Of a stretch of 64,000 nucleotides of DNA, positions 25,104 to 49,529 are shown one piece after another. The stretch spans positions 62,001-126,000 of the forward strand of contig NZ_JNNU01000011.1 of assembly GCF_000732195.1 (NCBI RefSeq). Direction: 5' to 3'. Numbering within the stretch: position 1 is the first letter of the stretch; the number at the start of each line of letters is the position of its first letter. This DNA is from Neorhizobium vignae (GTDB lineage Bacteria; Pseudomonadota; Alphaproteobacteria; Rhizobiales; Rhizobiaceae). A model generated the notes under the pieces. That model was not told the DNA's origin. It did no database searches and was given only the letters and a program-made list of their open reading frames with translations. The position numbers and the translations under genes are program-made.

Positions 25104-25178
25104 TCAGGCCGAGGGTTGCCCCGTCAAGACCGCCACCTTTCCATTGCCCGTTACACAGACCGAAATCTCACTAGACAT
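25104..25178 (-). CDS. Possible 24-residue peptide, or part of a small RNA
   Basis: A 24-codon ORF (MSSEISVCVTGNGKV...) with a very good ribosome site, GGAAGG six bases before the ATG, in a 610-base interval with no other gene. A strand-specific hairpin follows (25013-25038), and a TTATATAA-type element lies upstream near 25250. The unit could encode a peptide, be a leader for the DUF1127 gene 311 bp downstream, or be a small regulatory RNA in which the ORF is accidental. No family is recognised. Confidence 0.4.
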   Translation of the reverse strand: MSSEISVCVTGNGKVAVLTGQPSA

Positions 25179-25349
25179 TGGATCACCTTCCTTTCACTAC
25201 GTTGACGATGATTAAAAGGTAGGGGCCGAAGCCTGAGTCTGCAAGCCACGTTATATAAACGATTGCGTATTTAATTGAGTTGCGGAAACGGCCTTCCGCC
25301 CCTAGAATTCGCCAGCTTCGATCGAGGCAGATTCCCCCTTCAGCCCAGC

Positions 25350-25389
25350 GTCACGACTATCTTGCCGATATGGCTGCTGGTTTCCATCA
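25350..25389 (-). repeat. 40-bp direct repeat, displaced 3' end of the quinone oxidoreductase gene
   Basis: These 40 bp are identical to 26056-26095. On the minus strand they encode [12 protein letters not shown] and then continue, in the same frame, as T-L-G-stop, so this copy looks like the original end of the oxidoreductase gene now lying beyond the toxin-antitoxin genes. Confidence 0.93.
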
Positions 25390-25405
25390 ATCCAGGGATC
25401 GAAGA

Positions 25406-25687
25406 TCAGGCCGCGTCCGCGATATCCAGCCGGACGGAAAGCCCAACTTTTCCAGCAAGTTCTACCAGCGCGTCCAGACTGAAATTTGCAATCCTGCCCC
25501 GCAGCAGGTCGTTCAGCCTTGGCTGGGTGATGCCGAGGCGAGCGGCCGCATCCTTCTGGGTCACGTTCCAGTTCCGAACCTTCTGCTCGATCGCAATCAG
25601 CAGGGCCGAGCGCATCGACATATTGGCTGCTTCCGCCGGAGTGTTTTCCAGCGCATCCCAGACATTTGCAAAGCTCTGGCGTTCCAT
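25406..25687 (-). CDS. XRE-type antitoxin (Ata/HigA-2-like)
   Basis: A 93-residue protein. It opens with SFANVWDALENTPAEAANMSMRSALL, the typical N-terminus of COG5606 antitoxins, followed by an XRE helix-turn-helix (WNVTQKDAAARLGITQPRLNDLLRGRIANFSLDALVELA). It would neutralise the toxin encoded just upstream (13-bp gap) and repress the shared promoter. Toxin-first order is usual for this Tad-Ata/HigBA-like group. Confidence 0.93.
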   Translation of the reverse strand: MERQSFANVWDALENTPAEAANMSMRSALLIAIEQKVRNWNVTQKDAAARLGITQPRLNDLLRGRIANFSLDALVELAGKVGLSVRLDIADAA

Positions 25688-25700
25688 TGGTCCAATCCGA

Positions 25701-26012
25701 TCAGATCTGCCGCAGACGTGCGGTGGCGATATCCAGATCTCGCTTTGCCGTCTGCTGCGTCTTCTTCTGAAATGCATGCAGGACGTAGACGGCATCCTCT
25801 ATTTTGGTCACGTAGATGATGCGAAAAGCGCCCGCTTCGTCGCGAATGCGGATTTCCCGCACGCCCGCTCCGATCGTCGTCATGGGCTTCCAGTCGCTCG
25901 GCTCAAGGCCAAGTTGAATTTTATGCAACTGGACTCCCGCTTCCTTACGGGCTCCTTCCGGAAAGTCCCGCAGCTGCTCCAGGGCATCACCGAGAAAAAC
26001 GACCGGTTTCAT
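25701..26012 (-). CDS. RelE/HigB-like toxin (Tad, phage-derived Gp49-like)
   Basis: A 103-residue toxin of the Gp49-like/HigB family (COG4679). Conserved segments include KPVVFLGDALEQLRDFPEGARKEAG, WKPMTTIGAGVREIRIRDEAGAFRIIYV and the C-terminal YVLHAFQKKTQQTAKRDLDIA. Relatives act as ribosome-dependent mRNA endonucleases. The ATG at 26012 directly follows a GTG in frame; the ATG is chosen. It is the first gene of the two-gene operon. Confidence 0.93.
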   Translation of the reverse strand: MKPVVFLGDALEQLRDFPEGARKEAGVQLHKIQLGLEPSDWKPMTTIGAGVREIRIRDEAGAFRIIYVTKIEDAVYVLHAFQKKTQQTAKRDLDIATARLRQI

Positions 26013-26015
26013 CAC

Positions 26016-26035
26016 TTATACCAAAACTGATATAA
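26016..26035. promoter_or_regulatory. Operator-like palindrome of the tad-ata operon
   Basis: TTATACCA and TGATATAA (26016-26035) are inverted arms agreeing at 7 of 8 positions with a 4-bp centre. The element lies just upstream of the toxin start and contains the likely -10, fitting antitoxin autoregulation. Confidence 0.6.
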
Positions 26036-26048
26036 TTTGACAAACTTG

Positions 26049-27047
26049 TCAAAGGGTCACGACTATCTTGCCGATATGGCTGCTGGTTTCCATCAGCTTG
26101 TGGGCCTCGACGATGTCTGTGAACGGCAGGACGGAGTGGATGACGGGGGAGACCGTGCCATCCTCCAAGAGCGGCCAGACCTGCCCTAAGAGATCGTCGC
26201 GGATGGCGCGTTTTTCGTCTGGCGTGCGCGGGCGCATGGTGGAGCCGGTCACCGTCAGGCGCTTGACCATGATCGGCGAGAGGTTGACCTTTTCGGCCAT
26301 ATTGCCGCCGAGAAAGGCTATGATCGAGAGGCAGCCGTCCTTGGCGAGAACCGAGAGGTTCTTTTCGAGATAGGCAGCGCCGATCATGTCGAGCACGACG
26401 TCGACGCCCCGGCCGGCGGTTTCCGTCTTGATGACCTCGGCAAAGTCCTCGGTCTTGTAGTCGATGCCTCTCACGGCGCCGAGCTTTTCGCAGGCCTCGC
26501 ATTTTTCCCTGGATCCGGCCGTCGCGTAGATCGTCGCGCCGAACGCCTTGGCGAGCTGAATGGCGGTGGTGCCGATACCGCTGGTGCCGCCGTGGATCAG
26601 CACGCTCTCGCCTTCGGTCAGGCCCGCCATCTGGAACAGATTGGCCCAGACGGTGAAGAAGGTTTCCGGCAGCGCCGCGGCCTTCACGGCGTCATAACCC
26701 TTCGGCCAGGGCAGAGCCTGGCCCGCCGGTATGGCGCAATATTGCGCGTAACCGCCGCCGTTTGCGAGCCCGCAGACCTTGTCGCCAAGCTTGAATTCGC
26801 TGACATCCTCGCCGAGCGCCACGACTTCGCCGGATATTTCCAGGCCGAGGATCGGGCTTGCGTCCTTCGGCGGCGGATAGGCGCCCTTGCGCTGCTGCAC
26901 GTCCGGGCGGTTGATGCCTGCCGCCTCCACCCGGACCAGGATTTCGCCCGGCCGCACCGCCGGCAGCGGCCCCGTGGCAATGGTCATCACCTCCGGCTCT
27001 CCGAAGGACGGCAAATCGACGAAACGCATTTCGGTGGGAAGCAGCAT
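26049..27047 (-). CDS. NAD(P)H-quinone oxidoreductase, zinc-independent MDR family
   Basis: A 332-residue medium-chain reductase of the PIG3/Qor type. It has the GroES-like domain ([39 protein letters not shown]) and the nucleotide-binding motif [23 protein letters not shown]. The zinc ligands of alcohol dehydrogenases are absent. It should reduce quinones or related carbonyls with NADPH in the cytoplasm. GGAG precedes the ATG at 27047. The last 13 codons before the final residues are duplicated 700 bp downstream, and the present C-terminus (VVTL) differs from the displaced copy (VVTLG), indicating that the 3' end was replaced by an insertion. Confidence 0.93.
26056..26095 (-). repeat. 40-bp direct repeat, present 3' end of the quinone oxidoreductase gene
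   Basis: Identical to 25350-25389 over all 40 bases, diverging immediately on both sides. This copy is inside the oxidoreductase reading frame, ending seven bases before its stop codon. Confidence 0.93.
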
Positions 27048-49452: not shown

Positions 49453-49529
49453 TGGTCGGAGTGGAGTGATTCGAACACTCGACCCCCACGTCCCGAACGT
49501 GGTGCGCTACCAGACTGCGCTACACTCCG
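49453..49529 (-). tRNA. tRNA-Pro (anticodon CGG)
   Basis: A complete 77-nt cloverleaf with encoded CCA. Acceptor arms CGGAGTG and CACTCCG pair fully; the anticodon stem CCACG/CGTGG encloses TTCGGGA, giving anticodon CGG; the T-arm has GTTCGAATC. It reads CCG codons. No integrated element is visible at its 3' end. Confidence 0.97.

Follow-up and report, generated by a model that had tools for sequence, protein, structure and literature searches.

How did a lone toxin–antitoxin (TA) pair come to be enclosed by two copies of a quinone oxidoreductase (QOR) gene 3′-end, and how did that gene stay whole? The question is raised by a locus in the window, i.e. the whole 64,000-nucleotide stretch of Neorhizobium vignae DNA analysed here, where the minus-strand gene order is QOR, toxin and antitoxin, and a second copy of the QOR 3′-end lies just beyond the antitoxin (Table 1). 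A sequence-only reading of this DNA had proposed, as the simplest account, that a cassette carrying a substitute gene end was inserted and left the host gene functional, an interpretation that, taken as a whole, is partly supported by the analysis reported here.

A TA pair is flanked by duplicated 3′-ends of the QOR gene

The host gene matched the QOR model TIGR02824 at 483 bits (cut-off 296.8), and carries the ADH_zinc_N and ADH_N domains. Both downstream genes scored above the cut-offs of their domain models, PF05973 and PF13744, and are adjacent on one strand, so the pair, which the sequence-only reading had labelled tad-ata type (a name belonging to a pair of Paracoccus pAMI2), is predicted to be a type II TA system of the Gp49/HTH_37 kind; the toxin profile also matched HigB (6af3), though weakly (E = 0.0019). 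A dyad similar to the one found by eye in the spacer ahead of the toxin occupies the same place in the displayed TA-bearing relatives, and a consensus promoter scan, which requires T as the sixth base of the second hexamer, returned no promoter in the region. Toxin and antitoxin are the only recognised genes between the two gene-end copies.

Table 1. Features of the QOR–TA locus, in window coordinates
Feature	Position	Strand	Remarks
QOR (quinone oxidoreductase, PIG3 family), host gene	26049–27047	minus	Present C-terminus VVTL-stop
Proximal repeat copy, current QOR coding 3′-end	26056–26095	minus	40/40 versus distal copy
Spacer with putative TA promoter/operator	26013–26048	minus	TTGTCA, 17 nt, TATAAG; TTATATCAGTTTTGGTATAA dyad; by eye
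Toxin gene, 103 aa, Gp49/DUF891 (RelE/ParE-HigB type)	25701–26012	minus	PF05973, E = 7.5e-28
Antitoxin gene, 93 aa, HTH_37/Xre	25406–25687	minus	PF13744, E = 1.7e-19
Distal repeat copy, displaced original QOR 3′-end	25350–25389	minus	Context as in empty sites G023, G062 and G063
Native gene-end continuation (..T-L-G-stop), then start of native flank	25340–25349	minus	Stop 25340–25342; matches G023

The perfect 40-bp direct repeat noticed earlier was borne out, in that the exact core is 40 nt long and extends to a repeat of 43 nt with 42/43 bases alike (25347–25389 versus 26053–26095), at a spacing of 706 nt. As had also been read from the letters, the copy starting at 26053 is the present QOR 3′-end, and the distal copy reads on in frame through CTG GGC TGA, so that joining the flanks restores a T-L-G-stop end. 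When the 300-nt flanks of 587 control windows were compared by local alignment, one control reached score 16 and none reached 18, while an exact 40-mer scores 40 on the same scale; a chance origin of the repeat is therefore excluded. The TA segment with both repeats gave a single match in its own genome (G000), on contig C11, and the sole tRNA gene of the window lies at 49453.

On the same minus strand, a 24-codon open frame at 25104–25178, MSSEISVCVTGNGKVAVLTGQPSA, follows a GGAAGG ribosome site; it recurs downstream of QOR in many of the displayed relatives, TA-bearing or TA-less, and may encode a conserved small protein or a leader peptide.

QOR sites without the TA pair carry a single gene end

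QOR was searched in 60 relatives, from which 30 loci were taken, the window's own among them, and the QOR-end pattern (up to two mismatches) was scanned in 57 genomes of the genus, 55 of which gave a match. An empty site with one 40-mer and the T-L-G end, as the sequence-only reading had led us to look for, was found in G023 (L005/L064), a TA-less genome whose single copy ends VVTLG-stop and is followed by the window's own downstream flank. Two further TA-less genomes, G062 and G063, also have a single copy, ending VVTLS-stop, and belong to the same clade as the window, as does G023. The two flanks of the window, joined across the TA pair, make up 494 nt, and were 91.7–92.5% identical to G062, G063 and G023 over 493–494 nt with one gap each. 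Two QOR-end matches less than 1 kb apart occurred in only three of the 57 genomes (G000, G001 and G028), all of them TA-bearing, and at the 22 of 30 loci that have no intact TA gene the best second copy within ∼1.5 kb agreed at 18–22 of 40 bases, so neither survey yielded a TA-less relative with both copies. The three empty sites thus support the earlier claim of an insertion that left the host gene whole.

The same TA family lies between repeated ends of other genes

A toxin-alignment scan of genome contigs yielded 156 relatives, the best 80 of which were taken as loci; by these, the clade of the window is close to Neorhizobium galegae and N. tomejilense. Of the 80, 78 had both genes and enough flank. 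Direct repeats of score at least 18 between the 300-nt flanks were found at 10 of these 78 TA loci versus 0 of 587 controls, and of score at least 16 at 12 of 78 versus 1 of 587. The ten repeat-flanked loci comprise four at QOR together with L155, L158, L164, L212, L205 and L208. At L155 and L158, both of Mesorhizobium, ∼85 nt from the 3′-end of an opposite-strand DUF1737 gene are repeated upstream of the toxin; this repeat is present in these two and absent in three of the five named TA-bearing loci at the site, which is empty in seven g97 genomes (taken as Mesorhizobium, 84–100% DUF1737 identity). The TA pair is enclosed by a duplicated 20-nt moaE end at L164 and by a duplicated methyltransferase gene end of ∼112 nt at L212, the former in a metagenome bin and the latter in a Nitrospira bin, and these two bin-derived cases may be affected by assembly errors.

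A single event could be read exactly in the family-wide search. It covered 297 genomes, of which 29 had a strong toxin match, and scored 29 non-window loci, six of which the first set already contained. There, the TA pair of L304 (G303) occupies the 3′-end of a gene that, judged by eye, is alpha/beta-hydrolase-like, and the site is empty in two TA-less congeners, G243 (hydrolase identity 99%) and G165 (98%). Comparison of G303 with either congener gave a 681-nt insert and the same 44 duplicated bases, the two copies being alike at 42/44. Since the empty site matches the two copies at 40/44 and 40/44 in G243, and at 43/44 and 41/44 in G165, both hydrolase-end copies look like host sequence and not like an imported end. 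The insert consists of the TA pair and ∼80 nt ahead of it, and the antitoxin stop sits in the duplicated TGATC, a possible microhomology. The sole high-scoring control of this run (1/354) was L304 itself. Hence the search for TA pairs between repeats of other gene ends, which the sequence-only reading had called for, turned up four such genes, i.e. DUF1737, moaE, methyltransferase and hydrolase.

No such flanking repeat was detected at 68 of the 78 loci drawn from the best 80 of 156 relatives, at 28 of the 29 loci of the family set, or at 25 of 26 further loci (10/10 plasmid, 9/10 class-wide and 6/6 non-QOR loci of the genus), and decay may explain its absence at most TA loci. The one class-wide locus with a repeat, L246 (G652), has 50–60 non-coding nucleotides repeated around the TA pair, like a dispersed intergenic repeat. 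The intergenic repeats of L205 and L208 appear non-coding as well; all three may be dispersed repeats and were not counted as gene-end duplications.

A gene-end repeat was also found around a pair of another TA family. Among 30 HicA loci, found by the Pfam model and scored, one (L277 of G112, ∼1168–1710) carries HicA and a HicB-like frame immediately downstream of nrdJ (nrdJ and HicB named by eye), and a decayed copy of the nrdJ end, with 83/111 columns alike, follows the HicAB-like pair, an anatomy like that of the QOR locus. Nine relatives were displayed for nrdJ, and the comparison at L277 rests on the locus itself.

The QOR insertion is probably old, and the window's pair is a recombinant

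TA genes or their remnants were found at QOR in 16 of the 55 genomes with QOR, 12 as intact pairs and four degraded: G024 keeps the antitoxin alone, G070 has a frameshifted toxin gene, in G026 the toxin gene is interrupted, and G032 retains a remnant identified by eye. No TA match turned up in the remaining 39, within the DNA examined past QOR. The distal gene-end copy is intact in G000 (40 nt), G001 (40 nt), G028 (37 nt) and G005 (31/32 nt), and where compared with the host's own QOR spelling it agreed at 40/40 (G001), 37/37 (G028) and 31/32 (G005) positions. It is decayed, with an apparently common deletion, in G002, G078, G015 and G072, which belong to the same clade as the window, and was not seen in G010, G067 and G070; these counts leave out G061 and G066, which were ambiguous, and G024, G026 and G032, which were not judged.

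TA presence is scattered on an rpoB tree of the 55 genomes, with 12 changes under Fitch parsimony and 18 losses under Dollo over 54 QOR-bearing leaves. The TA tree is broadly like the rpoB tree, the exception being the misplaced G066, and TA and rpoB distances correlated at r = 0.91 over 12 genomes, six of which form one clade (Mantel p = 0.0004), and at r = 0.56 over seven lineage representatives. We consider the QOR insertion to be probably old, mostly inherited with the host and lost many times. Several separate entries at QOR instead of one old insertion are possible, since the left spacer and the right distal copy vary between lineages, so that one old insertion with later recombination looks the same as several insertions. 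Toxins of at least 70% identity, found in 14 genomes, are all located at QOR, and relatives at 56–60% identity lie away from QOR in six genomes (G075, G003, G011, G069, G073 and G019). These six non-QOR loci have no repeat of score at least 13 within 300 nt; exact repeats of 14–16 nt occur in four of them, and only that of L125 (16 nt) spans the pair, at ∼450 nt on each side. With the toxins of at least 70% identity at QOR and no repeat of that score near the non-QOR loci, we rejected the idea that the cassette currently moves from one gene end to another in this genus.

Mosaic analysis of the window versus its clade (nine genomes) pointed to a composite origin of the window's pair. Its promoter and toxin start are 97–98.5% like G002 and its antitoxin is 98% like G001, while TA-less G062 is the closest genome over the QOR upstream flank and the initial three quarters of the gene; in the downstream flank G062 does not stand out (94.2%, versus 94.6% for G072). 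On the two sides of a breakpoint near 25785, differences from G002/G001 numbered 5/40 and 32/7 (Fisher p = 2e-11 for the best scanned point, uncorrected; permutation p = 5e-5). By these comparisons the window's TA pair is recombinant, with two neighbouring lineages as its sources. At the 3′-end of the window's QOR, the final 160 bases (26259–26096) are only 85–91% identical to each of eight relatives, and this patch was therefore probably imported from an unsampled source. We rejected vertical descent in which the repeat stayed undisturbed, the pair being mosaic and the distal copy being decayed in four genomes of the clade and intact in the window and G001. The window's repeat may be perfect because the pair is recombinant, and the distal copy could have been renewed by gene conversion or when the pair re-entered an empty allele. 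The earlier picture of one simple insertion gives way to an event at QOR that looks old and a pair in the window that is a later recombinant.

Two of the degraded loci downstream of QOR have features of their own. At L063 (G024), the toxin is absent and the operator-like dyad and antitoxin are kept, i.e. a solitary antitoxin, and at L043 (G026), the toxin is interrupted by ∼270 nt bounded by an inverted repeat (CTAGGGTGAGGACCCGATCAT at one end, the reverse complement at the other), an interruption that resembles a miniature element.

Target-duplicating insertion is the likeliest origin of the repeats

The reading that we favour, with a probability of roughly 0.7, takes the 706-bp unit for a selfish TA cassette of minimal size, composed of promoter, toxin and antitoxin, which entered the last codons of QOR by target-duplicating insertion. 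Because four other, unrelated genes have their 3′-ends duplicated around the same TA family, and because each repeat is spelled as in its host's gene and the gene concerned varies from site to site, the repeat is best read as a duplication of the target and not as an end carried by the cassette. On the same grounds the substitute gene end, which the cassette had been supposed to bring, was not upheld. The set shown here combines insertion of a bare TA pair, long and variable host-derived target repeats and retention of the gene end.

Such an insertion could arise by end capture, with a staggered break taking up the cassette at a few bases of microhomology; alternatively, a replication fork might switch template and return upstream, again joining at short microhomology. 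Where the duplication spans a gene 3′-end, the insertion would survive selection because the gene keeps its promoter, body and end, and addiction would then protect the cassette. The repeats would also allow exact removal of the pair, with which the empty sisters are consistent, and would supply a transferred fragment with homology to an empty site, permitting homologous re-entry; re-entry or gene conversion would in turn account for the still perfect repeat of the window. A wider proposal, which we advance tentatively and rate as somewhat less likely to be right than wrong, is that type II TA pairs, reduced to promoter, toxin and antitoxin, are mobile in their own right and that their host-driven entry duplicates 20 to ∼110 nt of target, the repeats serving as doors for loss and re-entry; TA pairs would then be found at gene 3′-ends because addiction rescues the insertion and the duplication spares the gene. 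Its basis is more than one TA family, i.e. Gp49/HTH_37 at five genes and HicAB at nrdJ.

Site-specific integration, by which the cassette or an eroded larger element would have carried an attP including a substitute QOR end, with the recombinase acting in trans or since lost, appears unlikely. The anatomy speaks for it, since passages of PMC6379469 describe e14 at icd, with a 163-bp duplicated end, as having the same rebuilt gene end and the displaced native end as the repeat, exact removal restoring the gene. Seven tyrosine integrase matches exist in the genome, but all lie on other contigs and none on C11, which agrees, for tyrosine integrases, with the earlier remark that an integrase is missing here; unlike e14, the TA locus thus has no tyrosine integrase on its contig, and it has neither a consistent core in common with the other sites nor other recognised element genes between the repeats. 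The core was sought by comparing four target repeats pairwise in both orientations, the hydrolase and nrdJ repeats standing outside this set. The QOR and moaE repeats have the 8-mer TGGAAACC in common, at a score reached by 2/200 shuffles, and the score of moaE versus methyltransferase was reached by 6/200; however, 10 of the 12 comparisons were reached by at least 13/200 shuffles. That the repeats carry each host's own spelling, that their length spans 20 to ∼112 nt, and that the gene-end inserts hold little beyond the TA pair also tell against site-specific integration.

Next in order, and likewise improbable, is homology-facilitated illegitimate recombination, in which a fragment with the QOR end and TA pair of a relative would have joined homologously on the left and illegitimately on the right, short of the native end. 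It would suit the TA operator, which always starts within ∼20 nt of the QOR stop, and the right junction, which differs in that the distal copy starts TGATGG, CCAGCAG or ATATCGG or is missing, as well as the divergent 3′-end of the window's QOR, which probably came from elsewhere. Yet the donor must already bear a TA pair at the same gene, so the first event is left unexplained, as are single events such as that at the hydrolase site of G303. An unrelated local tandem duplication of the QOR end, with the TA pair between the copies by chance, has nothing in its favour but the repeat itself and is scarcely credible, as two nearby copies occur only in TA-bearing genomes among the 57 scanned and the arrangement recurs at other genes.

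Relation to known systems

Target-duplicating insertion of a TA pair has its nearest counterpart in insertion with long target duplication (ILTD), which passages of PMC3874152, PMC3031569 and PMC1643837 describe for restriction–modification (R-M) systems with long variable repeats on the order of 100 bp; Nobusato 2000 is the source given in all three, joined by Furuta 2010 in PMC3874152 and PMC3031569. Common to both, as far as these passages go, are an addictive gene pair outside any known element, an insertion seen by genome comparison and long variable direct repeats. Uninterrupted one-copy sites were found here at QOR (G023, G062 and G063), hydrolase (G243 and G165) and DUF1737 (seven g97 genomes), and the duplications were long and variable (40, 44, ∼85, 20 and ∼112 nt), though mostly below 100 bp. 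Unlike in the ILTD cases of these passages, the duplications here span gene 3′-ends and the host gene is kept whole. We call the events ILTD-like and not members of the published R-M class because the cargo is a Gp49 toxin with an HTH_37 antitoxin, i.e. a type II TA and not an R-M system; passages of PMC3874152, PMC2654758 and PMC3031569 tie ILTD to R-M systems and make no claim there for TA pairs. New relative to ILTD are this TA cargo, one exact event and one site tracked through a genus with its losses and recombination.

Other comparisons are looser. The TA islet ccdO157 of Escherichia coli is, like the QOR cassette, a lone chromosomal TA pair that varies among isolates and decays, and differs in that no target duplication is described in the passages concerned (PMC2654758). 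TA mobility is ascribed to horizontal transfer and recombination in passages of PMC2701414, where direct repeats go unmentioned, and a 4-bp duplication is given for an R-M homologue in part of PMC10273834. In open-licence literature, at the level of titles and the starts of abstracts, no TA pair was reported with direct repeats, target duplication or an empty site.

The scars of single events, i.e. insert, duplication and empty site, can be read here and bear on how lone TA pairs might spread among chromosomal sites without transposase or integrase; they link TA mobility to the long-target-duplication pattern proposed for R-M systems. A search rule for all genomes follows, namely a neighbour's gene end repeated across a TA pair, and so does a test of addiction, as exact deletion of the pair through the 40-bp repeats would be expected unless its loss is punished.

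Plasmid-borne pairs of the same family, known from Rhizobiaceae and other bacteria, differ from the window's in having flanking repeats at 0 of 10 loci tested. Toxin matches at E ≤ 1e-15 were found in 224 PLSDB records, 45 of them at 80–90% identity and 115 of the 224 typed as conjugative. In A. rubi the TA pair adjoins a partition operon, and in six Sinorhizobium records ParA lies ∼1.6 kb off, two records of the plasmid neighbourhoods being without annotation there.
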